Positions 6,583 through 49,230 of a stretch of DNA of 64,000 nt are shown here, piece by piece (within the stretch, counting starts at the first letter, position 1; each line of letters opens with the position of its first letter). The notes under the pieces are model-generated. The model was not told the DNA's origin. It searched no databases and worked only from the letters and a program-made list of their open reading frames with translations. This DNA is from Isoetes taiwanensis (lineage: Eukaryota > Streptophyta > Lycopodiopsida > Isoetales > Isoetaceae): assembly GCA_021234155.1 (NCBI GenBank), contig JAJEKV010000024.1:11568913-11632912 (forward strand), given 5' to 3'. A program made the position numbers and the translations under genes.

Positions 6583-9500
6583 ATGCCCTCCGTGATGGAC
6601 ACCAATTGGCTAAGAGCGTGGCCAAGAAAAAAGAGTGTGAAACCTATTGCTACTTTGGGAGAGACGTCAACACCAAAAAAGGTTGTTGAAGAACCAGAAT
6701 CCACGATAAACCCCTCCGGTATTATTAACCCTACTCTTCCTCTTGCTTTGAAGGCGCCAGATAGCACTACATCTGGTGGATTTATTCCAAAAAAACTCCC
6801 TCCTTTCAAAATTAACCTTAGAAATCTGACACCTGCTGACGATAGCCCGCAGCCCAGCAGTTCTCAAACCCCCCTCAGCCTCCTCTAAACTAGCATTGAC
6901 ATGGCCCCCACGACCGCCATTCGGTCGAGTTGAAGTTCAATCCTAAGAGGAACATAAGATGGCGAGCAAACCACTCGAAGCTTGAACAGGTTCAAAAGTT
7001 TTTACCCTTAGGGGTTAATTGGTTTACAAAGATTTCTATTTTTGATTGTGAACCTGCACCAGCAAACTTGACACACAGAATGCGGTCAAATGACCATGTT
7101 CAAACTCTGGTTAAAAGCTTCAAGAGGTCCTCACACCTGCTGACGTCGTGCCGTTTGACCCTATTACCAGGTAACGATTTCTTTATCTTTTGGACACTCG
7201 TTATGTAGATTTGACTTGATGGTTGTCTATCTTTTCGGGAGGAGGGTGACATGGAGCAATCCGGAAGATTTGAAGGGCAAGAAATTTTATATTATTTACG
7301 GCAACCACGGTATTTTGCGCCGCAAAACTCCTTTGTTCTATTAAATCGGCCGGTTGGAGCAAAGAACTAGAATTTGCCAAAGTATATGCTAGAAGAAGAT
7401 CGAGGGTGCTCAACGGAAATCTTACGCATACAAGGAATATATAGAGTTGAGTATTCAATGCAACGGCAATAATTGCAAACACCGTGTACTGAGAGAGCCA
7501 CCGATTGAAAAGCGCAACAACTTAGTCATCGGCACAAGGCTTATGGCTGTCCTCCACAAGGACCTATAGGGACAGCTACAACTTCAGCTTGGAAGGTATT
7601 TATTTATTTTCTACTGCGCCAACATCAGCGGCGCGATCTTGATGACCTTTGCTTCTGCGGGGATTTCCATGAAATTGCAACGACCACCTTGAAAGTGCGA
7701 GGAGCTTAAGGATGAAAAACAATTCATTTTATGGATGAGAAGGTTTTAAGAAGTTAATGGAAGTTGCCGGTCGTGGGTGAGTCGTAAACTTCGGTGGCGA
7801 CCATGGTGCGTTTCGGACAAGCCATCCAAAGAATTCTTTAACAAGACCTGGCTCCGGTTGCTCACGAGGTATGTCGAATCAGAGAGGTGTCCACAAACTT
7901 TCGATGAGATTATAGAAGGCAAGACGTATTTAAAGGTGCAGTCAGGTTATAGCGGGAGATTTGATTGCAAACAACGGGCAACTGACATCAGAACCCTCAC
8001 TTTTATGAGGCGCGAAATTTTATCTTATGCCACAAATTTGCTGCAGAAGGATTTCGATAGCTGGGAGGAATTGCTTCAGGCTTTTCCTGATTTGAATGAA
8101 CAGAGAATACTGGATATATCAGATACCGATACAGAGTACGTGAAGGCTAACTATAACAAGGATCATACACTAGGTAACCTACATGTAGCCTTTCTGGAGC
8201 CAATCAGGAATATTCTAAAGCCAGAAGAGACTAGAAAAAGAAAGGAAAAGAAAAATATTGTCATAGCAGTGACGAAGGATGGCATCCCTACTTCCTCCCA
8301 AGTGTCGAGAAATCGACATTGATATTCATTGACATCCGAGGGATAAACAAGGTATGGGATTGCAAGAAATACACAGATCTATTTACAAGGATAGCTACCA
8401 TGACGAATGCCAAAATTTATCACTTGGTTATTATCATGCGCTCAGTGAATTTGCCCAATTGCTTGTACAGTCAGAAGCAAATTCAGGGCGGTGGCTACCT
8501 ATCTTTAGGTTCTTATGAAGAAATGGGATGGGAGAGCAAACGAAGGGTGAAAGAACATCAGTACTTTATTAGTCATATGTGCATTAACAGGAGTGATGTT
8601 CGGGTAGCACCTGTGCAACCAGAGCTGGAGCTTCGCCTATCTCCACACGGCAAGGCTCCTAAGTCAACACCATTGCCTCCAATGCCGCTAACAGTAATGA
8701 GGATGCCGATGAGAAGATAAAAAAAGAAATTTCAGACTCTTTTTTCTGACGGGCAAACCAAGATTCAAATGGGCGGCAATGGAAGGAGATCTTGTATTGA
8801 AATGTCACCGAAAACCTCGTATGCCTACCATATTGTTGAACAAATTGGTGCCGACCGATGGTTGCGTTACGGATTTCTTTTCTTTGGGACAGACTTCTCG
8901 TGTTGCTCTTATGCAAGGCAAAAAGAGCGTGGCCTTCGAAGTTCAGTAAAGTGTGCGCTTTTCGAGGGCGTTCTTGGAAACGCTTGAGAAAATGGCCAAT
9001 CAAAGTACGGGGGTTTGAAGAAGAAGAGAAAGCGAGAATGTTGAGCCCGATCCAGCTCGCCCAACATCGATATCACCCAAAACACGAGATCTATCAAACC
9101 TGGATTCCATTTTGGAGAACCTCGATGCTAAGTCCTAATGAAGAGAAATGCAAGAAACAAAGCGCTTGCTTGAAGAGATCAAAAAGGTATAGAAGCCCCG
9201 AGCCCACTTTTCAAAAATTGAGTGCACTTAATGAGAAGCTTGATGGGTACATGCCTTTCTTGACAGCGAACATAAGTTTCAATACGTGGGCATAGAACAC
9301 ATGGAAATGGACCACCAAAGACATGGAAGCGGACCAACAAAGACATGGAAGCGGACCAACAAAGACATGGAAACCCATTTAAGATGAGGTTCTCGGGACA
9401 CAAGAGCATCGGTACACAAAAAGAAGCGAAGCTCTCTCATCCACAAAGAGATTGCTAATGAATCGGAGAACGAACTTATAGGCGGGGCAAAGCGGTGGAT

Positions 9501-9771
9501 GATGAAAAATGGGAGCCCGATTCACATCTGCGGCAAGATCGCAAAAGCGCCATGGGTGTTCGGGATTCCAGAGGTCACAGGTTATTCAGAGATGGACACA
9601 ACACAAGCTATGGAATTGGGTAGAGAGCATGTCAACCGCATGGCCAATGAAATGGGTGTGATACGATCAAGTATCCGAAACACAATCGAGAATAATGAAT
9701 GTTGTATATTACTTCCTTCAATGGAAATTTTGGTTTCGAGAATATGTATTACCATATCTTTTTGTCTTTAA
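6583..9771 (+). pseudogene. Long decayed coding region of unknown family
   Basis: Several protein-like stretches follow one another on the plus strand in shifting frames: 6583-6888 (Pro/Thr/Ser-rich), 7777-8322 (SWEELLQAFPDLNEQRILD), a different frame over 8331-8518 (YHALSEFAQLLVQSEANSG), about 8718-8950 (FKWAAMEGDLVLKCHRKPR), and 9430-9690 (AKRWMMKNGSPIHICGK). The amino-acid composition looks coding but the frames are broken by stops and shifts. I do not recognise the family. It may be the remainder of the element or gene that starts at 5595. Confidence 0.35.
9291..9385 (+). repeat. 22-bp tandem repeat
   Basis: About three and a half copies of a 22-base unit containing GACATGGAAGCGGACCAACA. 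It sits within the decayed coding region and would extend a repetitive peptide if translated. Confidence 0.75.
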
Positions 9772-10195
9772 CCATAGCTTTTACCATATGTTTAATGCTA
9801 AAAATAATCGCGACCCGCGATCCTCTGTAGAGTATTATATGGCTTTAAATCTTTGAATTATTTGTGATATGCTTGCTCCTCGGTACCTTATTTTAACACA
9901 ATGCTCTCATATGGTCTTAATAAAAGGCTCATTATTTTGTCTCCTTTCAGCTGCGAAACATCGCGTTCGCGATTCTTGCGATAAGTTTGAGCATTCCCTC
10001 CTACTACATTCTACTGGCGATGGATCTTTGCATGAGCTGTAAAAATTATATTTCATGAAACAACACCTCATTTGCGGAATTTGTGCAAAAACGCCAACTT
10101 TTACTTTCGGTTGGTAGCGGTTTTTTTCTTTGGCTACCCGCTAACCTATTTCATGCTAAACGAGAATTCCAAATTTCTCTAATTAATGAAATCAT
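9772..10195. other. AT-rich spacer with two CGCG palindromes
   Basis: No gene. Palindromes ATCGCGACCCGCGAT (9807-9821, 3-nt spacer) and ATCGCGTTCGCGAT (9960-9973) belong to the family seen at 3.6-6.0 kb. Confidence 0.7.
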
Positions 10196-13100
10196 GCTTT
10201 TACATGCACACTTTGTAGGTAGGATATAATCCCACCTTAGGAAGTTGGGCACCATAGCGCTGTAAGACAGCGGTCGGTCCATGGCCCATTAATTTTTTAG
10301 AGCTTGTTTAAGGTCCATACTAGACTAATCTTGTACAGACTATCTAGTTTATCCCACTACCTTGCGGCAGCCAAAGTGGAGGACACGTATAGGCTTTTAA
10401 GTTCTACCACGTCGGGGATCATCATCGTATACCCCTAGTAACCAACACCCAAAGATAAGTGACATTGACAAGGTTTGAACCTATGACCAAATGAACACTT
10501 ATTTTGGCATTACTAGACCTATACCAACTCACCACACATCCGTTGGGCAAAACTTTTGCCTTACATGCATACTTTGTAGGTAGGATATAATCCCACCTTA
10601 GGAAGTTGGGCACCATAGCGCTGTAAGAAAGCGGTCGGTCCATGGCCCATTAATTTTTTAGAGCTTGTTTAAGGTCCATATTAGACTAATCTTGTACAGA
10701 CTAGCTAGTTTATCCCACTACCTTGCGGCAAAAAGGAGGAGACACGATAGCTTTTAAGTTCTACCACGTCGGGGATCATCATCGATATACCTAGTAACCA
10801 ACACCCAAAGATAAGTGACATTGGCAAGGTTTGAATCTATGACCAAATGAACACTTATTTTGGCATTACTAGACCTATACCAACTCACCACACATCCGTT
10901 GGGCAAAACTTTTGCCTTACATGCACACTTTGTAGGTAGGATATAATCCCACCTTAGGAAGTTGGGCACCATAGCGCTGTAAGACAGCGGTCGGTCCATG
11001 GCCCATTAATTTTTTAGAGCTTGTTTAAGGTCCATACTAGACTAATCTTGTACAGACTAGCTAGTTTATCCCACTACCTTGCGGCAGCCAAAGTGGAGGA
11101 CACGTATAGGCTTTTAAGTTCTACCACGTCGGGGATCATCCTCGTATACCCCTAGTAACCAACACCCAAAGATAAGTGACATTGACAAGGTTTGAACCTA
11201 TGACCAAATGAACACTTATTTTGGCATTACTAGACCTATACCAACTCACCACACATCCGTTGGGCAAAACTTTTGCCTTACATGCATACTTTGTAGGTAG
11301 GATATAATCCCACCTTAGGAAGTTGGGCACCATAGCGCTGTAAGAAAGCGGTCGTCCATGGCCCATTAATTTTTAAGAGCTTGTTTAAGGTCCATATTAG
11401 ACTAATCTTGTACAGACTAGCTAGTTTATCCCACTACCTTTAAGGGGCAGACCAAAAGTGGAGGACACGATAGGCTTTTAAGTTCTATCACGTCCGGGGG
11501 ATCATCATCGTATACCCCTAGTAACCAACACCCAAAGATAAGTGACATTGGCAAGGTTTGAACCTATGACCAAATGAACACTTATTTTGGCATTACTAGA
11601 CCTATACCAACTCACCACACATCCGTTGGGCAAAACTTTTGCCTTACATGCACACTTTGTAGGTAGGATATAATCCCACCTTAGGAAGTTGGGCACCATA
11701 GCGCTGTAAGACAGCGGTCGGTCCATGGCCCATTAAATTTTTAGAGCTTGTTTAAGGTCCATACTAGACTAATCTTGTACAGACTAGCTAGTTTATCCCA
11801 CTACCTTGCGGCAGCCAAAGTGGAGGACACGTATAGGCTTTTAAGTTCTACCACGTCGGGGATCATCATCGTATACCCCTAGTAACCAACACCCAAAGAT
11901 AAGTGACATTGGCAAGGTTTGAACCTATGACCAAATGAACACTTATTTTGGCATTACTAGACCTATACCAACTCACCACACATCCGTTGGGCAAAACTTT
12001 TGCCTTACATGCACACTTTGTAGGTAGGATATAATCCCACCTTAGGAAGTTGGGCACCATAGCCCAGAAGAAGGCAGTGGGTCCATGGCCCATTAATTTT
12101 TTAGAGCTTGTTTAAGGTCCATACTAGACTAATCTTGTACAGACTAGCTAGTTTATCCCACTACCTTGCGGCAGCCAAAGTGGAGGACACGTATAGGCTT
12201 TTAAGTTCTACCACGTCGGGGATCATCATCGTATACCTCTAGTAACCAACACCCAAAGAGAAGTGACATTGGCAAGGTTTGAACCTATGACCAAATGAAC
12301 ACTTATTTTGGCATTACTAGACCTATACTAACTCACCACACATCCGTTGGGCAAAACTTTTGCCTTACATGCACACTTTGTAGGTAGGATCTAATCCCAC
12401 CTTAGGAAGTTGGGCACCATAGCGCTGTAAGACAGCGGTCGGTCCATGGCCCATTAATTTTTTAGAGCTTGTTTAAGGTCCATACTAGACTAATCTTGTA
12501 CGGACTAGCTAGTTTATCCCACTACCTTAAGGCACCAAAGTGGAGGACACATTATAGGCTTTTAAGTTCTACCACGTCGGGGATCATCATCGTATACCCC
12601 TAGTAACCAACACCCAAAGATAAGTGACATTGGCAAGGTTTGAACCTATGACCAAACGAACACTTATTTTGGCATTACTAGACCTATACCAACTCACCAC
12701 ACTTCCGTTGGGCAAAACTTTTGCCTTACATGCACACTTTGTAGGTAGGATATAATCCCACCTTAGGAAGTTGGGCACCATAGCCAGAAGACAGCCGGTC
12801 CCATGGCCCATTAATTTTTTAGAGCTTGTTTAAGGTCCATACTAGACTAATCTTGTACAGACTAGCTAGTTTATCCCACTGCCGCTTGTACAGACTAGCT
12901 AGTTTATCCCACTACCTTGCGGCAGCCAAAGTGGAGGACACGTATAGGCTTTTAAGTTCTACCACGCCGGGGATCATCATCGTATACCCCTAGTAACCAA
13001 CACCCAAAGATAAGTGACATTGGCAAGGTTTGAACCTATGACCAAATGAACACTTATTTTGGCATTACTAGACCTATACCAACTCACCACACATCCGTTG

Positions 13101-18882: not shown

Positions 18883-19629
18883 GGTGGGTGAAAATATCCT
18901 TACCCTGGTTTTGGTGATTCCATCGCGGTTATTCCCTACCGCGGAATCACAAACCCCCCCCCCCAACGGGATCCGTGCCGGAGGCCCCGTTTTCCGTACC
19001 TGACAGTACGACAATAAATTCAATACCGTCCCGCGGAATCACAACTGTAGAATACTGCCGGATGGAATCACCACGTATTTATACCTCGCGAAGGAATCAC
19101 GACGACGGAATACCGTCGGACGGAATCACCACGGAATTATTCCACGCGATGGAATCACGGCGTTGTAATACCGCCGGATGGAATCACCACGTGAGAATTC
19201 CTCCCGAAGGAATCACGGCCAGGGAATACCGTCGGACGGAATCACCACGGAATTATTCCACGCGATGGAATCACGGCGTTGTAACGGAGGCGCCGGATGG
19301 AATCACCACGTGAGGATTCCACCCGAAGGAATCACGCCCAGGGAATACCGTCGGACGGAATCACCACGGAATTATTCCACGCGATGGAATCACGACGTCG
19401 TAATACCGCCGGATGGAATCACCCGCCAGGGATCCCACGGCACGGAATCACCACCTTACAATTCCCCCGGACGGAATCACCATATTCTGATTCCCCCGGA
19501 CGGAATCACCACCTTACAATTCCTCCCGGCGGAATCACCACAATACGATTCCTTCGGACGGAATCACCAAGCAAAATCTGATTCCGTCCGGTGGAATCAC
19601 GTCGCCGTGAATCCACCGGATGGAATCAC
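18883..19629 (+). repeat. Left terminal inverted repeat with ~22 GGAATCAC motifs
   Basis: About 22 copies of GGAATCAC(C), spaced roughly 30 bases, each preceded by strings such as CCGGAT, CCGGAC or GCGAAG. A 110-120-base internal duplication (19198-19310 region) makes it longer than the right TIR. A run of 11 C lies near 18953. The spaced octamers look like transposase-binding sites. Overlapping ORFs are incidental. Confidence 0.85.
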
Positions 19630-27750: not shown

Positions 27751-28378
27751 GGTGATTCCATCCGGTGGATTCACGGCGACGTGATTCCACCGGACGGAAT
27801 CAGATTTTGCTTGGTGATTCCGTCCGAAGGAATCGTATTGTGGTGATTCCGCCGGGAGGAATTGTAAGGTGGTGATTCCGTCCGGAGGAATCAGAATATG
27901 GTGATTCCGTCCGGGGGAATTGTAAGGTGGTGATTCCGCGTCGGGGATCCCCGCGCGGTGATTCCATCCGGGCGGTATTACGACGCCGTGATTCCATCGC
28001 GTGGAATAATTCCGTGGTGATTCCGTCCCGACGGTATTCCCTGGGCGTGATTCCTTCGGGTGGAATCCTCACGTGTGATTCCATCCCATCGCATTATTAC
28101 AACGCCGTGATTCCATCGCGTGGAATAATTCCGTGGTGATTCCGTCCGACGGTATTCCGTCGTCGTGATTCCTTCGCGAGGTATAAATACGTGGTGATTC
28201 CATCCGGCAGTATTCTACCGTTGTGATTCCGCGGGACGGTATTGAATTTATTGCCGTACTGTCAGGTACGGAAAACGGGGCCTCCGGCACGGATCCCGTT
28301 GGGGGGGGGGTTTGTGATTCCGCGGTAGGGAATAACCGCGATGGAATCACCAAAACCAGGGTAAGGATATTTTCACCC
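27751..28378 (-). repeat. Right terminal inverted repeat with ~18 GTGATTCC motifs
   Basis: The reverse complement of the left TIR, including the G run matching the left C run. About 18 GTGATTCC motifs at ~30-base spacing. Shorter than the left TIR because it lacks the internal duplication. Begins near GGTGATTCCATCCGGTGG at 27751. Confidence 0.85.
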
Positions 28379-30485: not shown

Positions 30486-31618
30486 CAAGTAACGGTGCCC
30501 AGCGTTGCTGGGCATTCGTTGGAAGTTTGTAAATGTTTTTGTTGCAATAAGAAATGTGTGCAGTAAGCTTTTATTATTGGAATAAAAAAATATTCAAGCA
30601 TGTTATAGTGCCCAGTGCTGCTGGGTATTAGTACAATGTAAGAAATCTATAGAAACTAAGGGGCTATTTCATCCCGTAGAATTTCTTTGTAGACTACATT
30701 TAGAGTGAACCTCCGTTTGGTTTTTAGCAGTGCTCCTTGTCTTGTGGTTTCTTGAATGGATACCTTCACTCCGTGTTGTGTAGTGCACCTTGAGAATATG
30801 ACATAGAGCTGGCCGTGTGCGAATACTGGAGTTGGTACGTAGATGCCAACGGAGGTCATTGACTGTCCTTGCGACTTGTTTATGGTCATCGAGAATACAA
30901 GTCGGACGATGAACTGCCTTCGCTTGAAGGGGAGGAGGTCGTTATCTGATGGCTCCAGTGTCATCCTTGGTATGAGGACTCGTGTTCCTTTGTAGGTGCC
31001 AGTGATTATTTCTGCATCTATGATTCTTGGGTGCGCTTTGATTACACGGAGGCGGGTGCCATTGCAGAGATCGGCCTTTGGGTTCATGTTTCTGAGTAGG
31101 ATGATGATGGCACCATCCTTGATGTGTAACTTATGCGGTGGCATGCCAGAAAGAGTCAGGTGGTTGATGAACTCAATTGGGAAATCCCTTGTAGCATCTT
31201 CGCCTTCTGCAATGATGGCATCTATGCTTGTGTATGTATGGAGTTGTCCATTCATCCTTAAAAGGACCTTATTGTTGATTCTCATCGTGTCTTCATTCTT
31301 TGGAGTCAAGATGGCCTTGTCATGCAATACGTGCACATTTGCCTCTGTTATTTCCTTGCCGAAGATGCTGTCAATCAAGTCGTCTTCTACCACGCATTCT
31401 CCAGGTATCTCAACCAAGTCGCGATCGAGTCCTGACTCATTGTTCATCTGTTCCCCATTACCGAGTCGTAGCAGCCAATTTGAGAAGATTTGCTCGTCTT
31501 TTCCGACCCACATGTTTTGTGTCAGCTTGTGGGTTTTGAAATTAATCCACAACGGGTTTCTCTTGACACACTTCGAGATGATTTCTGTCTTTGTTGCACG
31601 CTTGATCCAAGAAGGCCA
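30486..31618 (-). mobile_element. Helitron fragment with RepHel helicase C-terminus
   Basis: On the minus strand 31618-30656 encodes the C-terminal part of a Pif1-type Helitron helicase. Visible motifs are PLWINFKTHKLTQNMWV, FSNWLLRLGNGEQ, LTLSGMPPHKL, NGTRLRVI, FSMTINKSQGQSM and HGQLYVIFSRC. The frame is open upstream to about 31614 and then meets an ankyrin-tail copy, so the Rep domain and most of the helicase are missing. The minus-strand 3' end is at 30486: an 8-bp hairpin TGCCCAGC-AAC-GCTGGGCA (30496-30514) lies 10 bases from a CTTG terminus. The flanks compared with uninterrupted copies show insertion between A and T, as Helitrons do. CTTG departs from the usual CTRR. Confidence 0.8.
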
Positions 31619-31800
31619 TCTCTTGCTTCACAAAGATGGAAATCAAATTCAATCTGTTGTTTCAAATGATGGAGGTCAAATACAATCTTCTCCTCCAAAC
31701 GGGGAAGGAGGAACACGACATGAATATGTAGCATAATAACAGGGGGTTTTCTTTGTGTTTTTGTACGCTTTTCACAAAGGTTTTCCTAAGATTTCATGGC
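31619..31800 (+). repeat. Third copy of the ankyrin tail with different 3' end
   Basis: Encodes KDGNQIQSVVSNDGG through GGTRHEYVA and a stop at about 31734, then AATATGTAGCATAATAACAGGGGGT. The latter is repeated at 36316-36400. It abuts the broken end of the Helitron helicase. Confidence 0.65.
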
Positions 31801-32940
31801 GTATTCGAATAGATGTACTAATGCGTACATCTAGAGTGCACCATTTCTTAGTCGTTGATTTAGTTTTTTTTTTCAATAGTCCAATATCCAAGGGCTCACA
31901 ACAAAAGCCCTCTTTTTATTTTAGTTGCCCTCTGTTTGCATGCAAGAAAGAAAGAAGGCAAGAATCGAAAGCAATACAATGCTGGAGGGTTCGAACATGC
32001 TTCAAGATTCAGCATTCGGCTTCAAGAATAGGCTTCAAGATTTGACATTCGGCTTGAAGATCTAGCATTCGACTTCCTTATTTAGTGCCTTCCAAGAAGC
32101 TTCACCATTCCCTTCCGACCTTCCCTTCAGATTTGTGCTACATTGTCGTCTTTCCAAAATTTGTACCTTGAAATTGTGGTATTAGGGGATACGAGGATGG
32201 ATTGTCTAAGGTATGGGGCCTGAGAAGAAGCTTCCGATCTAAGGTAGCTATTAGATCCTGCATCTTTAATTGCTGCAAGGCCTCGATCCGATCCGCCAAT
32301 GGCCTCCAAGAAACTTTCTCAAGAAACCGCCGGGCGTTTTGGGAGAGAATGAGCAAGACGAAGAGTTTTTGTTAGTGGATGAGATTTTACGTAAGGGGTC
32401 AGCGACTTCGGGGCTGCCCAGTTGCTAAATTTCGTTCTGCTCAGCTTTGCATGGACTATACTATAGAGGCTTCTCTATCTTTTGTTACAGTGTTTGCAGA
32501 GAGAAAACCCTTGTGGCATTGCTTGGAGCAGAGTCCCAACTGCATAGCAACCTTCTCCAGGTATGCAATTCATTCTTTTACTTATCAAGCTCCTGTGATA
32601 TTCGAATCTAGGGATTAACGATTATTTCATGGAAGAAATTTTTTCTTACTATCTCAGGCAAGCTCCAGATTTTCGCCCACATAGCAACATTTCTAAATTA
32701 AATAGACACATGGAGTTCATTTGTCCAATGAATTTGCAGCCACAGAACTTTTTAATTTGGGCATCAAATCCTTCTGCTATCCATCTCTGTGTCGAATTTT
32801 TCTATTTCACTGTCGAAGTTTTATCCATTTATCTGACCAATTTAAGCGTGGGTTTGTCGAATTTGGGCATCAAAATCTGTTGCTGATGTTTTCTCGGAGC
32901 ATCTTAAATCTCTGTTGAATTTGGCCTCTGCTCTTTCGCT
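31801..32940. other. No clear gene
   Basis: AT-rich sequence with short ORFs only (for example minus 32356-32127) that match nothing recognised. GCTTCAAGAT/CATTCGGCTT strings are repeated near 32000-32070. Confidence 0.4.
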
Positions 32941-40731: not shown

Positions 40732-41124
40732 GAGTAATATACAATTGAAACAAGATTGCGTATTAAACGGGAGCAAATCATCGAAACGAGAGCGAAAGGA
40801 ATATTCCTCAAAGATTCCCTTTTTTTTTACAAAAAGGGGGTAAAACTAGGTTTAAAAAAAAAAAGATGCATGAAATTCTATTTTGACCCCCCCCCAAAAT
40901 GACTAATTTTTTTGTGCAACCAAAGAATTGACATTTTTAAAGTGTCACTTTTCTTAGCAAATAGAATGTTCTTGAAGTATATTTTACGAGAGAATCTCTA
41001 ATTTCAGAGGATAAAATATTTAACAAAAAATTGAAGTAAGTCCAGAATCTAAACTCAGTATTCTCAAAATTTGAAGATAGAATCTTCATATTCACATGCA
41101 AAATTTACAGTCTTTTTCTAAGAC
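40732..41124. other. No gene seen
   Basis: AT-rich, with A, T and C homopolymer runs. The string ATCGAAACGAGAGCG has no assigned role. Confidence 0.35.
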
Positions 41125-41700
41125 TCAGTTATGTACAAAAGTGTGAGGAGTGATGAGAGAGGGATCCAGGACGTCATCATGTTCATTTATGCCATCCTCA
41201 TCACCTTCACTAGAGGAAGTGCTTGAGTTATCTTCCTCATCACTATCAACAGATGGTGAAGCATTGCCACCACCTTCTTCATCCTCTTCTTCGTAATTAC
41301 AAGCTTTTTTAAGCAAATTGATAGTCCTCTGGCGTAGACGATTGTCAGATTTCAATTTAAAATCATAGCATAATATAGTCACGTCATTAAGGATCAGCTC
41401 ATCCCTACAACCCACCTTCTTGGACTTTCTCCCTTTTCCTTGGCTTCTCATTTCTAACTCATATCTACCTTCAAAAGCGTGTTGCAAGCCAATGAATCTT
41501 GAGTTTAGTGACTAAGCCTTCCTCCTTGACTGTGTCAAGCACTTTTGCTATCCAGAAAGGTCGACCTTTGTCATCCTCCTCAGTAGGAAGAGCAATTAGC
41601 ATACCCTTGGTAATTTCTGTGATATTACCTTGAGGCTCATTCCCCGCCTTGGTCCGAGGTACATGACTCGATCCTCGCCTTCTTCTACTGCAGTGCTAAC
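41125..41700 (-). pseudogene. C-terminal module of a transposase-like protein
   Basis: The minus strand reads ITKGMLIALPTEEDD, RPFWIAKVLDTV, KIHWLATRF and, after a one-base shift, EGRYELEMRSQGK, LKSDNRLRQRTINLL and an acidic Ser-rich tail to 41125. The GMLIALP...PFWIAKV...IHW layout parallels GMLLLIRP...WLAFAEE...VSWFEP at the end of the 1003-3602 gene. Both probably belong to a widespread plant transposase-derived family. The upstream catalytic part is not recognisable here. Confidence 0.5.
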
Positions 41701-44350
41701 GTAGCATTGCTTGGACCTCGCTTTGGTGGGGTTGATGGAAGGTGTTAGGCCATTGAAATGGTTCTTGCAACTGTCTTAGAGCTATATTTTTCACAACAAT
41801 TTTCTGTTCGAGAAAGAAGTTACTCCACCACATTCGATCTTCTTCTAAGAAGTACTTAAAGCCTGAGGAAATTCCATTTTCTATGGCTTTTAAGGATGAC
41901 TCGGGGTACTTTTCTTCCGCTTGGACTCCTTAGGATTTTTGAGAGGAAGTTGCTCAAAGACGCTCTACCTAAGGAAGTGTCTCGAATATATTTAAGGAAG
42001 CGTAATCCCTCCGGTGGACTCCAAATCCTTAGTTGTGGTATACTTCTTGCCCTCAGAAGAAACTCGGTCATCCTTCAAGTAGAACTTGATGTGATGTTGA
42101 AAGGTGAGATCATTCAATTTGTTCACAGCCTTTGTTCTCTCGTCCCTGAATGTTGAGAGAAAATAAACTCTCTCAAATCAGCAGCCTTTTTTAAGAAGAT
42201 CGATCACCGGGAGGGGAGTGTAAGAATCTTCAATAATTCGAACTAAAGTAGGAAGAGAGAAAGCCTTCTTCCTTCCGAGGCTTATGTAAAATCTGCTGAA
42301 CATTTGGTCAATTTGATCATGAGTGTGGCCTACAAGTAAGAAACCCAAATTTCACTTTTCTAAAGATCCCTAGCTCCACTAACATGGCACAAGACGCGCA
42401 AAGAGTGTTTGGTTCTTGTTCTCCCTTGTAGTATTGTCAAGTTGCAGATAAAGCACCGGTGGTAATTGCTCTTGCTCGCCGCAGACCTTGTTAAGAATTG
42501 TAATTGTGAGGTTCGGTCACCATGCAAGTTTGGATACGTCAAGAATACTTTGCACTTTAGACTTCCTTTGAAGACCATAGCTCCTACAAGGTGGACCTTA
42601 ACAAAACATTCCTCCGCACATCTTTAGGAATGTTCAAGAAATGCGTAGAGTAGTTTTTTTTTTGTCCATTCCATCAATCACAATGACATATATTGCAAAG
42701 GACGCTCAAGAGCTTTTTTTTCGTGTTTTGGCAAGCTTTCTTCTCTCTCTCACGCTTGTTGTTCACGATGTGTCCGGCAAGGTTCTCGTTGCACAATATC
42801 TCAGAGAAGAAATGAGGTCAAAGCATTATCTTTAAAACAAGTAAGAGATTGGAGAACATGAGCTTACTTCTTTCGACCTCTGCCTTTTGCGGTTTCTCTT
42901 TGACTCTTTAATTCTCGCACACCTTGAACAAAATGACATTCTATGTCTCCCCGAATTTTCACTAAACCAATTCACTTTTCCACACCCGGGTGAAGTGTGA
43001 GTAAGAGATGTGTCAAGCCGAGTGCAAGTCTCTTTGTACTCATTAAAAACATCTTTTTGGTGATGTTATCGCTTAAATGATACATGTTACCAAGTAGGGC
43101 AGACTTCTCACATGTTTCTCTAAAATATTTCTCCATCCACGACCACGGCCAGCAAGGGGCATGCATGGTTATAACTCTTCTTGGTCCACAATGATCATCA
43201 ATGGCTGGATTTTTGTCCGGTCTTTTGTGTATTCTAGACATTCGGTGGACCCTAAACGGTGGACAACCATAAAGCATTTCGGCAAACTTCTTTGACGGTT
43301 AATGTAGTGCAAGAAGGTGTTGCGGTCTGGTCTTACATGATAGGCCAAATAGGCATTCTCGGTCAGCCAATGTCATTGAACTCAGAAGTTGTCTCTAATT
43401 GCTCGTAATTTAGCCATGTTAAATTTGTTGATGCAACCCAATGAGCAAAGATTTACTTCTTAAAAGTCTTCTCATTTTGTGCTCGGTCCATAAGGTTTCT
43501 TCTTCTTACAGAGGAGCATGCTCTCAAACTAAAATCCACCTTGAATTTCTTGGTGGATTGGCTAGAGAATGTGTAATCTCGTTGCGCTTCGTTGGTGTCT
43601 TCATCTTCCTCAAGAGAGTTCTACTGGGGTGACCTCCTCTACCCTTAGTGGTGTGCTTGTAGAGGAGAACAAACCACGGAAGCCGCATGCGGATAAAGGC
43701 GGAGGTGCAAAGTTGAATGAAGGAGATGGGCCACCATATGATGTGCCAAAAAAGTTGTTGTAGCGCCTTCACGGGAGTTCGTTCAAACATGTCTCTTAAA
43801 GCAGACTCAAATTTCAAGAAACCCATGTGTCACCACGCTTGTGTGAAGAGGTGTAGATGCTGCAGGTCGCCTTCATTTGTAGTGAAATCGTGGTGGGAGA
43901 AGCGATGGAGGATCTCGCAGCCTTCTTGAACGCGTCTTTGTATTCCCCGCATGTGTAAGTGAAGATGGAGAAACAACAAACGGCGGAGGTAGTCTGGTTC
44001 CGGAAAATTTGCTGAGGTCGAGCCATTGTAGTGTCTGGGGATGGTACAAATGGTGGTGGAAGATTGCTACGCGCAAATGGTGAGGGTTGGAAAGGTGGTG
44101 GCAGCCGGTTTCCCACCGGACTTGGAGAGGGTTGGAAAGTGGTGGTGGCACCGCTAGTTACCGGACTCCTGAGTGTCTTCGAGAAGCAACAAAGACCTTG
44201 TCGAGGTAGGTGTTGAAGAAGCATCTCCGCCTTGTGTTCCATCCGAAGTAGAGGTACTTGGGCAAACAAATGGTGGTGGAAGTTTGTTTACGGCGGTTAA
44301 CCATGTCAAACAACCGCAAAAATTGTGGGCTTGTTACTAACTCACAAGTC
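41701..44350. other. Degenerate coding-like DNA, no assignable gene
   Basis: Many short ORFs on both strands. Some look protein-like (minus 43277-42972, Cys/Trp-rich; minus 44151-43873, Pro-rich; plus 44031-44216, Gly-rich), but none gives a recognised family or a continuous model. Probably layered transposon remains. Confidence 0.35.
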
Positions 44351-44704
44351 GATTGGACTAATGATATTCAAGAATACAAATGCTATTCCTAATAGTATTT
44401 TGTGTGCAAAGATTTGCCGTGTGTGTGCAAAGATGCTATTCCGTAATACACTTGTCCGTGAGTGTTTGGACAAGACGTATTCCGCATTACATAGAAAACA
44501 CAACCGACGCTGGCCTACCTTTAAAAAGGAAAATCGAAATTTCGGTTCATGTATTCCGCTTTCGGAGATTTAGTCGCCAGCCCGAGCACCTTCCGATCAA
44601 TATACATTTGTCAGATTCCGATTTACATAGCGAAGACAATGGACGTGTAAGCATATAAAGTACATAGTACGCCTTTTCTTTTGTTTCCTCGATTTGGTTT
44701 AGTA

Positions 44705-45006
44705 GGGCAAAGTGTATTCCGAATACACTTTGCCCTTTTCAGTGAAGAGCAAAGTGTATTCCTGAATACACTTTGCCCTTTTCGGTGAAGAGCAAAGTGT
44801 ATTCCTAATACACTTTGCCTTTTCAAAAGTGTATTCCTAATACACTTTGCACTTGACGAAAGGCAAAAGTGTATTCCGAATACACTTTGTCTTCACCGAA
44901 GGGCAAAGTGTATTCCTACACTTTGCACTTCACTGAAGGGCAAAGTGTATTCCTAATACACTTTGCTTCACACCGAAGGGCAAAGTGTATTCCTAATACA
45001 CTTTGC
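44705..45006. repeat. Array 1: eight long palindromes, core GTGTATTC-N-GAATACAC
   Basis: Eight hairpin-forming units at ~42-base spacing. The first (44705-44735) has 15-base arms GGGCAAAGTGTATTC / GAATACACTTTGCCC around one C. Others (44749-44776, 44792-44818, about 44826-44850, 44861-44890, 44901-44926, 44939-44966, 44980-45006) have CT, CCT or C spacers and 10-13-base arms. Spacers between units contain GAAGAG/CCGAAGGG strings. The array ends about 245 bases before the ParB-like coding region. Confidence 0.9.
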
Positions 45007-45251
45007 TTGTCTTTTTGGAAACTCTTGTTTTTAGCACTTAATGAAGACACCTTTTAGCTAAAAATGCACCACTTTTAAAGGTTAAAATAACAATTTCGAG
45101 TCCAATTAAGGCACAAAAATTGTCTTAGAGTTACTATATTTCTCGCTTGTTTTCCTCGTCTTTTTCCGGCCTTTAGGGCACAAGATTAGTAAATGTTATT
45201 CGAATACGTTTTCAATTTCTTGCCTTAACATTGTTGTTTTAAACGTTTCAG

Positions 45252-46942
45252 TGGCAGGGAAGAAGGAAGCAAGAGGGCATCGAAGAAATCTCGTAAGCCT
45301 AAGCGTCCACACCCACAAAAGCATACCGCTGACACGGACGAACCTGCTATTTACGAAAACTTTCAAACGCAGTGGTTCGTAACTAGGGGTGCAGATGGAA
45401 AATACAAAGACACCGACGCTTTTGTACGCCCCAGAAAAAGTGCTGGACAAAAAAGGTACGCCGACTCCGAGTTTGTGAACCTTGGGACAATAAAAGATGT
45501 TGAGGAAGTTGCCGGACAAGGTGGTCAGGTGGGGAGGCTATCCTTCAAGACCTCCCAAGGCTTCATAGTTGTGGACATCGCATTTTTTAGAATTGTCAGT
45601 GTGCAACCACCGGCACTGTACAAATTCTTTTCACACTACCGGTCAAAAAGAAGCCTGTGTTCAGTAATTAGACAGGTTTGTACCAGTACAAGCGAGGACT
45701 TTCCTGTCAGTGAGTCCGAGCATTCAGATGGAGAAAGGTCACAATCATCACCCTCAGATGCTAGTTCTTCGGGGAGGTCATCGATGGAGGTTCCCAGAAC
45801 AAGACGAGGAAGAACCCCCTGTGCGGCCAAAGAAACTTAGCAGGCCAAGGGCAACCATAGCTGCTAAAGAACCAAAGAAGCGGAAAGCACAGCAGCTTGA
45901 AATCACAGAAGTCCCCGAGGAACCTAAGAAGAAGAAGGGGAAGGGTAAAGCACCTGGTGTTGCTATTAAGGAAAAAAAAGTTGATAAAACATCTGAAAAA
46001 ATGGAAGAGATTAACCTGCACAAGTTTGTGCAAGGTGTCATTTATTTGCCGGGCCACTTCAATGAAGCTTCCTCCAAAAATGAAGTCGGTGAAAGGCCAC
46101 TTCAGTGTTCGCAAAAATTTATGCCGATCACTTGAGGAACCCGGAAGACGTAATAAGGAGCAATCCAAATGCTCATGTGGCCCCAATAGTTGTCCTTGTT
46201 GACAGGGAGCAGTGCACAACCCCCCAGGAGTATGACAGAGAAAACGCTGACACCTACACTCACTACGTCTTGGGAGGGAATCATAGCTTCAAGGCAAGAA
46301 GGCAACTTTACAAAGAAAAGAAGAACCCGAGGTACCTCTCCGTCCTCTGCGCTGTCTACTGTAGTCTTACAGATGAAGAAGCAAAAATCTTTGCCAACAC
46401 CCACAATGCTGACAACGAGTACAAACTAAAGATGAGCTTTGTCGACAAGATCCGGTTTATGCACAGGGAGTATGTAATTTTCAAGGAAAAGTACGGTGAG
46501 GACCTTAAGAAGCCAGCGTTTTCCTTGGAGCTTAAGGAGGCGTGTGCCATTGAATGCTGCCTGAAATATGACGAGGCCAATAAAAGGCAGTCTCTCATTG
46601 GCCACGACAACTGGTTCCAGTTAGCTTTTAGAGATGGCAAGGTAAGCACAAAATGTATTCCAGAATAGCAAACCGACTATTTGACGTGAAATCTTCTTGA
46701 ACAGATTTGGGAACTCCAGGACGAGATATTTACAATGTTCGAAAGAGGGGAGTTAAAGAGCAAGGGCAAGGAGACAGCCAAGAAAAAAAAACCCCTGACG
46801 TGCCCAAAAAAAGAAATGACCATTACCGCCCGAGGGGAAATGCGTGGCTTCTCCGACACGGAGAGCTTCCGGGAGCAAACTTCTCCCAAAAAGTTGTTGA
46901 TAAGGAGTTTAGCCTAGAAGAAATGTCAAAGGAATTGCACAA
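45252..46942 (+). pseudogene. ParB-like nuclease-domain part of a ParB-methyltransferase gene
   Basis: After an acceptor AAACGTTTCAG (ends 45251), a frame runs to 45840: basic start, then AIYENFQTQWFVTRGADG and a globular VGRLSFKTSQGFIVVD, then a Ser/acidic tail. A shift near 45,780 continues as EEEPPVRPKKLSRP and EINLHKFVQGVIYLPGHF. After a further shift near 46,100 comes LRNPEDVIRSNPNAHVAPIVV and YVLGGNHSFKARRQL (46264-46308). This is the layout of a ParB/sulfiredoxin-type domain: an I.L..V..LP strand, a partner strand, then a G.NHS..A motif in place of GxRRxxA. Intron 46642-46704 (GTAAGC...AACAG) joins FRDGK to IWELQDEIF in frame. The exon then carries a shift at an A run and ends at donor 46943. 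Partner of the methyltransferase exons downstream. Confidence 0.6.
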
Positions 46943-47002
46943 GTAAGTTCTCCTCACACAAACTTTACTCTTTGCATGTTAGATTCCCAAAAACATCGGC
47001 GC

Positions 47003-47300
47003 ACATAGTGTATTCCGTAATACACATGCCTTCCTCCACACCCGCAATGTGTATTCCGGAATACACATTGCTTGTCTCTAGAAAAGCATTGTGTATTCCG
47101 GAATACACATTGCTCCTCTTAAGAAAGACATGTGTATTCCGGAATACACATTATGCTTCCTTTAGAGAAGCAATCAGATTCGAATACACATTGCTTTTCT
47201 AGAGACAAGCAAGAGAGTTTGTCCCAGAGCGTAACTATTTTCTGCATATTGTTTTGAGGTAGCATCACCAGTTAACCAGTTTGTATTCCAGAATACAAAT
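47003..47300. repeat. Array 2: intronic palindromes, core GTATTCCGGAATAC
   Basis: Lies wholly inside the intron 46943-47379. Units: 47008-47025 (CCGT spacer); a perfect 28-bp palindrome at 47044-47071 (arm GCAATGTGTATTCC); a near-perfect one at 47086-47113; a 22-bp perfect one at 47130-47151; a degenerate one near 47170-47194; and TTTGTATTC-CA-GAATACAAA at 47280-47299. An outer inverted pair, GCTTGTCTCTAGAAAAGC (47070-47087) and its reverse complement (47193-47210), encloses the central units. Confidence 0.9.
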
Positions 47301-47379
47301 AGTTTGACTTTTATTTGTTTTCCTTTTACTTTGCCTTGATTCTTACGTTTAATCTCATTGTTTCCTTAATGTCTTGCAG

Positions 47380-48829
47380 CCAAAAGAACGTTATAACATG
47401 TCAAACATGTTTGATGGAGCAGCTAAACGTCGAAACATGGGAAAGGTGCAAGGAACTCTACCCAATTGCCACATCCGACGAGCGCATTGTGCAATATGCA
47501 CCAAATTTTGAGGGCTGGGTAAGTACTCTCAAAATTCCTTTTCTCTGCACAAACGATCTCTTGACAGTTGTTGTTTTGTTTTTCTTTAGAGCAAAAAGAA
47601 AAATAAGGACCTGCCCGAGGGCTTTATGAATTTGGTTAGAACAACACGGGAAGAGAGGTCGTTAGCTGAAAGAAGAACTGTTGAGCCAGAACCATCCGAC
47701 TACGAGAGATTCTGCATGTTTGATCAAAACAATTTATATTCAATCATTCATGGTGATTGCACGAACCTTGTCGGAACGGTTAAGCCACAGGACTTTACTT
47801 TGGTTATTGCTGATCTTCCCTACGGGTTTAAGCTTAAAGACAGCAGATACGACGATCAGCCCTTCAAATTTTCAGAGTTTAATGCTTTCATTGAAGGAAT
47901 CAAGCAGATCTCAACGGCCAAACATTGGCGTTTAGTGACGTTCCATTCGAAAGCATGCGACCGGCTTGGTGGAATCAGCTTTCAAAAATCACTTTGGTTC
48001 TCCGATTCAGGCAGATATGAAAACCTTGTTCAGTAAGTCTTATTCCGAATACAATTACTTTTCTCTTTAATTACGTAGTGTATTCCTAATAGTGTTTCCT
48101 CGTTTCGGTGTTCAAGTGTTTTCTTGTTTTTGCTAACATCACTTTAAATGCTTCACTAGGTACAAAACGAACATCAACTACCATGGTGGAGGACCAAGGT
48201 TGCTCAGCAAGGTAGAGTACCTTCATGTAGCTTATTGGAGTTTTGATGGGAAGAGGTCCATGGAACACTTTAACACTGCCGCCTGTCAAAACTTTTCAAA
48301 CGCCCTAGAGTTTCCAGCCGATCTTCTACAAATTGCGGGACCCAAGTGCACAAGGCGATTGTGAATCACTACCGTAAACCACAAAAGCTCATCAACCATC
48401 TCCGGACATGTTCTCGCCCCGTGAGATTGGGTGCTTGATGCTTTCTCCGGTTCTCGGTACTACTATCGCATGTGCACTTAAGAAGGGCCGCAAATCCGTA
48501 GCCGTGGATATTGATAAGGAGGTCGTGCATTTTGTGAAGATGAGATCGGGGTGCCTTTACCTACTTTACCAGATGAAAATCAAGAGTTAGGGGCCAAGTC
48601 TTCATCTGATTATGCTAAACTAACGTCCTCAGAGATACAGCCTCCATTCTCGAGCTCACTAGACGACGAGGCAACCTTTGCAGAGCTTAAAGAAGTAGCT
48701 TTAGCTACCATTCCAGAGAACAAGGAGGATACAAAACTTAAGTCTCCAGCAAAGGAGCAGATTGAACAGAAGGACGAGACGGCAGAGAGCAGCAAAAAGA
48801 ATGAGGAGGACTATGATGTAGATCTTTGA
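47380..48829 (+). pseudogene. N6/N4-type DNA methyltransferase part of the same gene
   Basis: Exons 47380-47518, 47590-48032 and 48160 onward have GT-AG borders. Reading: LYSIIHGDCTNL, then VIADLPYGFKL (DLPY at 47812-47823 in place of DPPY), then a globular region, LLSKVEYLHVAYWSF, and after a shift IVNHYRKPQKLINHL. Next comes DWVLDAFSGS (48431-48454) and, one extra C later, GTTIACALKKGRKSVAVDID. The DPPY-like motif before the DxFxGSGTT SAM-binding motif is the order of the N6_N4_Mtase family, which methylates adenine-N6 or cytosine-N4 in DNA. A Lys/Glu-rich tail ends at 48829. At least four single-base shifts (near 48350, 48420, 48455, 48545) make it inactive as read. GT-AG introns and charged tails argue against bacterial contamination. 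Confidence 0.7.
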
Positions 48830-49230
48830 CTACTGCATATTAAAATTATCATTATTTATTACAATGAATCTTCAATATTGATGTACAAAAATTTATTAAA
48901 AACATATTACTTTTTTTTCCTTTCTATTCTGGTGCTTTTTTTTGTAATGCTTTCAGTCTCTTCAAGTCTATGCTAAATTTCGCTATTTTTATGATTTCTG
49001 TTTCATAAGTACAAAGTTTTTGCCTAATGATGGGCCAAAATGGCATGAAAAAAAATGCAAACCTCTAGAAATTCTCAACTACTATCAAAAAAGGCTTATT
49101 TTAGAAACATGGTGTTTTTTTAAAGGGAATCTTTGAAACGGGAGTGATGCAACACTCCCGTTTAATTTGCAATCGTGTTTTGATTACAATAGATATATTC
49201 TTTTGCTAATGCTGTTGTTTCCTTGTACAG
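48830..49230. other. No gene seen
   Basis: AT-rich 3' flank of the methyltransferase gene with many T and A runs. The phrase GAAACGGGAGTGATGCAACACTCCCGTTT (49136 on) forms a 9-bp inverted repeat, AAACGGGAG / CTCCCGTTT. Confidence 0.45.

Follow-up and report, generated by a model that had tools for sequence, protein, structure and literature searches.

The 64,000-nucleotide stretch of Isoetes taiwanensis DNA analysed here (contig C1028:11568913-11632912; hereafter the window) contains an 8431-bp DNA transposon copy of a group that we call family A, and both a gene joining a ParB-like to a DNA methyltransferase domain and the palindromes associated with this gene lie inside its borders. Comparison with other copies in the genome, of which 1,658,258,908 bases in 1110 contigs were searched, revealed that homology begins at 40749 and ends at 49179. 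The ends are terminal inverted repeats (AACAAGATTGCGTATTAAACGGGAG, 40749-40773, and CTCCCGTTTAATTTGCAATCGTGTT, 49155-49179; 22 of 25 positions match), flanked by the 4-bp target-site duplication TTGA at 40745-40748 and 49180-49183. Duplications of 4 bp were present in all six copies with both ends compared, comprising the window copy (TTGA), E2 (CCTA), E7 (CTCG) and the short elements nA (TTTA) and nB (ATAC) for family A and its short relatives, as well as B2 (CCTT) for a sister family B; outside this count are E6, which is without a left end, E3, E4, E5 and E8 with one end read, the uncompared E9, and B1, whose right end was not found. The short elements nA (4284 bp) and nB (3778 bp) lack a complete gene, retain inverted repeats at both ends and have kept palindromes. 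An earlier note on this DNA had described a single gene saturated with palindromes; the link between gene and palindromes held, while the object turned out to be a high-copy DNA transposon instead of one gene. An isolated host gene was ruled out by the high copy number and the element borders shared among copies.

The element carries two divergent genes. On the minus strand, pieces mapped by tblastn with the exons of copy E2 span 41477-43995 at their outer limits, with broken frames, and belong to a gene with a DUF7869 domain (PF25273; E 2.3e-52 in E2, with a further DUF7869 match at E 7e-47), which we infer from position and copy number to be the transposase. No mention of DUF7869 was found in the literature searched, whose coverage leaves out most subscription papers. 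The ParB-like/methyltransferase gene on the plus strand was resolved by homology mapping into an exon with an N-terminal and the ParB-like domain (45349-46641, frame broken; the ParB-like domain matches TIGR03764 in other copies), exons 2 (46705-46943) and 3 (47378-47518), a methyltransferase exon with DLPYG, a DxPY-type motif IV (47590-48033), and a further methyltransferase exon (48161-48718) whose S-adenosylmethionine-binding motif is broken here and reads DAFSGSGTT in other copies. Genome-wide exon and protein searches, in each of which the best 150 of all first-look candidates were scored, drew on 3205 candidates for the ParB-like exon (46093-46645) and 2481 for the methyltransferase exon. 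Pairing two such lists of best 150 by eye, which is not exhaustive, gave at least 17 cases in which a methyltransferase match lies 4.7-5.6 kb 5' of a transposase match on the opposite strand.

The methyltransferase half was assigned to PF01555 (N6_N4 methyltransferase) with 49.8 bits in E2 (E 5.4e-13) and 59.4 bits in B2 against a cut-off of 26.7, while the window copy alone reached 12.3 bits; other copies show the motifs ADLPYG or ADIPYG and DAFSGSGTT. The N-terminal domain of about 110 amino acids (window 45349-45700) can be aligned between families A and B at 20% identity, and its family A form had no Pfam match in profile scans. A phage search gave no match for the gene DNA or the family B ParB exon; the family B methyltransferase exon matched 825 phage records, every one below 60% identity. 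Differences among copies of the ParB exon affect 7%, 4% and 39% of sites at codon positions 1, 2 and 3 in family A (28 of 29 copies, L044 being dropped) and 8%, 3% and 39% in family B (13 of 14, without L070). The median ratios of nonsynonymous to synonymous substitution rates (dN/dS) were 0.043 (176 of 378 pairs) and 0.022 (47 of 91 pairs), respectively, after exclusion of pairs that were saturated or had a dS of 0.02 or less, and are biased low by drawing the copies from the best 150 protein matches. These patterns indicate that the ParB exon is under purifying selection in both families. At locus L001 (C21:36000-43000), two apparently broken copies of the gene stand in opposite orientation, close to what appears by eye to be retrotransposon gag-protease-like sequence.

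Searching the window for GTATTCCNGAATAC on both strands with up to two mismatches returned 21 matches, compared to a mean of 1.4 in shuffled sequence and 21 or more in none of 100 shuffles. Twenty of them represent ten sites between 44364 and 47296, each seen from both strands; the remaining one, with two mismatches, is at 32179. Degenerate palindromes at 44364-44490 and array 1 (44705-45006; tandem repeat at 44707-45006, period about 40) occupy the region between the two divergent genes. Two 5' splice sites, one near 46642 and one near 48033, are directly followed by single palindromes, that of the former being at 46655-46668, a position shared by 18 of 20 sampled copies. Array 2 (tandem repeat at 47008-47212, period about 42) and a single site at 47283-47296 lie together in an intron (47003-47300), and sequence reading and copy comparison identified two degenerate palindromes in the intron following the 48033 splice site (48037-48095). 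The palindromes that the earlier note had reported are thus real and both arrays stand where it had placed them, but array 1 calls for a correction: almost every unit has a broken centre (CCGAATAC, CCTAATAC) and only the unit at 44756 is exact, unlike in close copies, where the centres are intact (CCGG). Similarly, the gene that it had proposed is present, with the correction that its reading frame is broken in the window copy. The assembly is Nanopore-based with Illumina polishing, according to the available text of PMC8566536, and the indels behind the broken frame and the broken centres may therefore represent assembly error, or alternatively decay. Miscalling of modified bases by Nanopore sequencing is a further conceivable source of the broken array 1 centres.

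Across the genome, exact GTATTCCNGAATAC occurs 5407 times in forward and 5300 times in reverse orientation, compared to 27 and 26 for a control word read backwards. We took all palindrome clusters among 100 places listed (contigs C1-C23), except those in L001, and compared the resulting 19 windows by blastn to reference elements in which the palindromes and 14 flanking bases had been masked. All 19 were homologous to the element group (E 1e-8 or better), although they are not independent, as several fall within one element and some are diverged relatives (66-69% identity). In 20 gene copies of family A, chosen as ParB-exon copies down the best-150 list, palindromes with up to two mismatches were found 3' of the ParB exon in every copy and inside the exon part in none. 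In 18 of these, all except L050 and L052, a palindrome stands 11-12 bp beyond the point where the protein match stops, which is about 14 bp from the exon end. Of 28 aligned copies of intron 1, 26 retain the core while most of the intron has diverged; the core is missing from L050 and degenerate in L052, and one A copy, L046, was not recovered for this alignment. None of 80 palindrome centres in the window copy, E2, E7, E6 and B2 falls into mapped coding sequence, which makes up 39-52% of each element. Relative to the mapped transposase pieces, all 80 are on the right, within either the divergent intergenic region or non-coding sequence on the ParB-methyltransferase side, and in full-length elements of both families 3.5-3.7 kb separate the left end from the first palindrome.

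Family B was recovered by a search that scored the best 150 of 2916 candidates. Its ParB region is 45-49% identical to that of family A, and the full element B2 shows the same two divergent genes, a 4-bp duplication and inverted repeats (AACAAAGTTTAAAATGAAACGCAC) related to those of A. The A palindrome is absent from B1 and B2, in which repeats of GGTATAAATTTATACC occur in the corresponding intergenic region and introns. This division was complete among the gene copies, with GGTATAAATTTATACC in 14/14 and the A word in 0/14 copies of family B, and the A word in 20/20 and GGTATAAATTTATACC in 0/20 copies of family A (Fisher p 7e-10, treating copies as independent although they are related). The window and eight A loci of 10 kb each contained no GGTATAAATTTATACC. 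Exact GGTATAAATTTATACC occurs 7218 times in the genome, its reversed control not once. For all listed GGTATAAATTTATACC clusters other than those on contig C4, from which the B query had been taken, homology to the B element after masking was detected in nine of ten windows (E 1e-5), and five of the ten represent ends of elements, where inverted repeats and B words stand side by side. The locus on C4 carries A words within an A-like fragment and only B words from the start of B homology, and is read as two neighbouring or nested elements. In a diverged A-like family on contig C3, whose ParB region is 82% identical over the part read, the A word has been kept. At the B2 locus (L073), the element is flanked by pieces of a minus-strand open reading frame (ORF; 1-615 and 9094-9999) split with the duplication CCTT, by eye one other transposase gene interrupted by B2.

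The number of palindrome units varies strongly between copies, as would be expected if they were functionless selfish tandem repeats spreading by slippage within the element. This explanation is hardly probable at all, since the core is conserved against diverged linkers, single sites hold a fixed position, mapped coding sequence contains none, and the sister family has another palindrome in corresponding places.

A third word emerged from seven loci chosen for DUF7869 matches with a profile match unlike A and B, of which 2.9 kb upstream were read. In five of the seven (L084-L088), CTATGCGCGCATAG is repeated, chiefly in the interval that separates the transposase from the next exon on the plus strand, and neither the A nor the B word was present at these loci with up to one mismatch. 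L084, L085 and L087 are 88-93% identical and L086 and L088 more distant, so that these loci represent about three related families and not five lineages. Exact CTATGCGCGCATAG occurs 1551 times in the genome (control 0). The other two loci, L089 and L090 (91% identical to each other), form a B-related family with GGTATAAATTTATACC, GGTATGAATTCATACC and GGGATTAATTAATCCC, possibly a word in transition. Alignment of the main words (gTAT-TCC, gTAT-AAA, cTAT-GCG and gTAT-GAA, each completed by its own reverse complement) revealed the common frame nTAT-NNN-NNN-ATAn, outside which GGGATTAATTAATCCC falls.

Another reading takes the palindromes for host transcription factor sites hijacked as promoter or enhancer. 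The A consensus includes TTCnnGAA, the core of the heat-shock element, family B sites include the TATAAA motif, and arrays lie in the divergent promoter region. However, the conserved A core reaches past TTCnnGAA to TAT/ATA, the second and third words differ in their inner letters, and sites also occupy a fixed place 3' of a splice site, which renders a host factor improbable.

Family A sites are mostly spaced by 41-42 bp (126 gaps), near four helical turns, and those of family B by 28-30 bp, and helical phasing was consequently rejected as a general rule. Symmetry outside the core was seen in family A, where positions 2, 3, 5-7 and marginally 10 pair above all 300 shuffles, an excess inflated by related copies; in family B, no position exceeded the maximum of 300 shuffles. 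Such extended pairing, together with the location of arrays in introns, would suit palindromes that act as DNA or RNA hairpins, for example with an effect on splicing or on the production of small RNAs, and not as binding sites for a protein. We regard this role as very improbable: the core letters are near-invariant beyond what symmetry demands (a feature that the search pattern itself favours), family B lacks any pairing position outside the core above the shuffle maximum, and the excess in A may stem from the relatedness of its copies.

Taken together, the window element is a family A copy of a large group of two-gene transposons, and its palindromes would serve as its own cis-acting address sites for its own ParB-like/methyltransferase protein, a reading that we consider fairly probable. 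As a dimer, the ParB-like domain would bind the palindromes of the introns and the divergent promoter, the methyltransferase would modify the bound DNA, and the element would in this way mark its own copies and regulate them or shield them from host silencing, with different palindrome words in each family directing each system to its own kin. The protein appears to be the best candidate binder because it is conserved and combines a domain of the DNA-site-binding type, weakly identified, with a DNA-modifying domain, and because in families A and B its own gene contains or adjoins the sites. The difference in words between the families fits coevolving self-recognition. A more specific version, a kin-specific epigenetic system built from prokaryote-type components in which parS-like palindromes load a ParB-like clamp-methyltransferase that spreads along the transposon and writes N6-methyladenine (6mA) or N4-methylcytosine (4mC) against plant silencing while words diverge with proteins, is tentative and rather doubtful.

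Several observations weigh against the self-addressing element. The ParB assignment is weak, the ParB-like half scoring 19.7 bits (E about 5e-4) against TIGR03764, far under the cut-off of 143.75, with two of four members matching at E 0.1; profile searches of the Protein Data Bank gave no ParB match and merely marginal unrelated ones, and a structure model of the window ParB-like exon alone was not used (predicted local distance difference test score, pLDDT, 33.7). Element homology is lacking in one of the B clusters, L076. The ParB-methyltransferase was not seen at the third-word loci, where reading covered only some 100 bp at the start of the presumed exon, and the symmetry beyond the core in family A is also expected of a hairpin role. 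Among 270 A sites, 110 have the centre CG, 81 CA and 52 TG; this CpG decay pattern suggests that A copies were probably CG-methylated at some time, and the CA or TG centres at 133 sites therefore argue that any mark has given the palindrome no lasting protection. Finally, ParB differs between A and B to the same extent as the transposase (about 48% each), with further differences in the inverted repeats, and the co-variation of word and protein therefore does not single out ParB.

The last point also bears on an alternative in which transposition requires the palindromes as binding sites for the transposase or one of its cofactors, comparable to the repeated subterminal motifs of En/Spm, and the ParB-methyltransferase is an unrelated passenger. 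Further in its favour, palindromes persist in the short elements that lack a complete gene, in some cases a few hundred bp inward of the ends, and three CTATGCGCGCATAG sites (two in L084, one in L088), which likewise count against self-addressing, are on the transposase side, flanked by the DUF7869 exon and the next exon of the transposase. In contrast, the arrays of full-length A and B elements begin too far from the left end to be subterminal, the sites track the introns of the ParB-methyltransferase gene and are missing from the mapped transposase gene, and the inverted repeats already provide family-specific ends, so that we judge transposase sites to be unlikely. Self-addressing thus remains our preferred reading. 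It extends the suggestion of the earlier note that the protein recognises or methylates its own palindromes, and palindromes scattered without a link to the gene, which that note had named as evidence to the contrary, were not what we observed in these samples. The palindrome is tied to the element group (19/19 windows, 20/20 gene copies), with a sister family carrying another word in corresponding places, and this lends the suggestion strong, though indirect, support; it is weakened by the short copies without a complete gene and by a transposase as diverged as ParB.

Among known systems, bacterial ParB/parS combines ParB with clustered palindromes of 14-16 bp in and beside its gene, and the Isoetes element likewise carries clustered palindromes and a ParB-like domain, although its protein is fused to a methyltransferase and matches ParB weakly in sequence. 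The likeness to N6_N4 methyltransferases (PF01555) such as CcrM and phage methylases lies in the significant profile match and in the DxPY- and FSGSGTT-type motifs, whereas the gene described here is split by introns, joined to a ParB-like domain and carried by a eukaryotic transposon. Prior work on algal ParB-methyltransferase transposons reportedly includes that of Petroll (2025). Genes of this type occur in Sola1-1_Ec32 of Ectocarpus and in further algal transposons, and their products have been suggested to act on the very transposon that encodes them by binding and modifying it, as stated in the available text of PMC12477816 (citing its refs 50, 51). Like these transposons, the Isoetes element pairs its transposase with an opposite-strand gene for a ParB-like domain, weak by profile, and an N4/N6 methyltransferase. 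Sola1-1_Ec32 is, however, 21.5 kb long and algal, compared to about 8.4 kb and very many copies in a land plant, and the available text does not mention palindromes or target sites for it, as described here (PMC12477816). In the literature searched, with the coverage given above, we found no description of palindromic target arrays of such transposons; while ParB-methyltransferase transposons are already known from algae, the linked palindromes are apparently undescribed.

The closest functional likeness is to VANC21, which binds a short motif in tandem repeats within introns and intergenic regions of VANDAL21, while the motifs of VANDAL6/VANC6 differ (PMC5735166, PMC10398659, as far as their text is available). 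Both systems have family-specific motif arrays in their own non-coding regions and sister families with other motifs. The VANC motif YAGTATTAY is not a palindrome and VANC is not described as a methyltransferase in the available text (PMC5735166, PMC10398659), and there binding and hypomethylation were shown by experiment, whereas the Isoetes system is a prediction from sequence. The 4-bp duplication and DUF7869 transposase further set the Isoetes element apart from VANDAL, and no MULE- or VANC-named Pfam match was found among the scanned element pieces, which gives no ground for VANDAL/VANC membership. Owing to the close likeness to VANC, anti-silencing or autoregulation would be the likely effect of self-addressing. 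With candidate sites now named for family A (GTATTCCGGAATAC) and family B (GGTATAAATTTATACC), two protein families are paired with two words, and together with the many natural copies this opens the self-marking proposal to binding assays and 6mA/4mC calling. If true, the system would represent an independent, convergent answer to the problem solved by VANC and could supply a land plant with 6mA or 4mC.

Elsewhere in the window, an ORF on the minus strand (30656-31627) resembles by eye the PIF1-type helicase part of a Helitron. Two tandem arrays with units of about 29/58 bp are located at 19035-19569 and 27781-28243, and their units (GGAATCACCACG and GTGATTCC) are by eye mutual reverse complements. 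A 361-bp tandem repeat occupies 10200-12880 with 7.4 copies and 95% matches.

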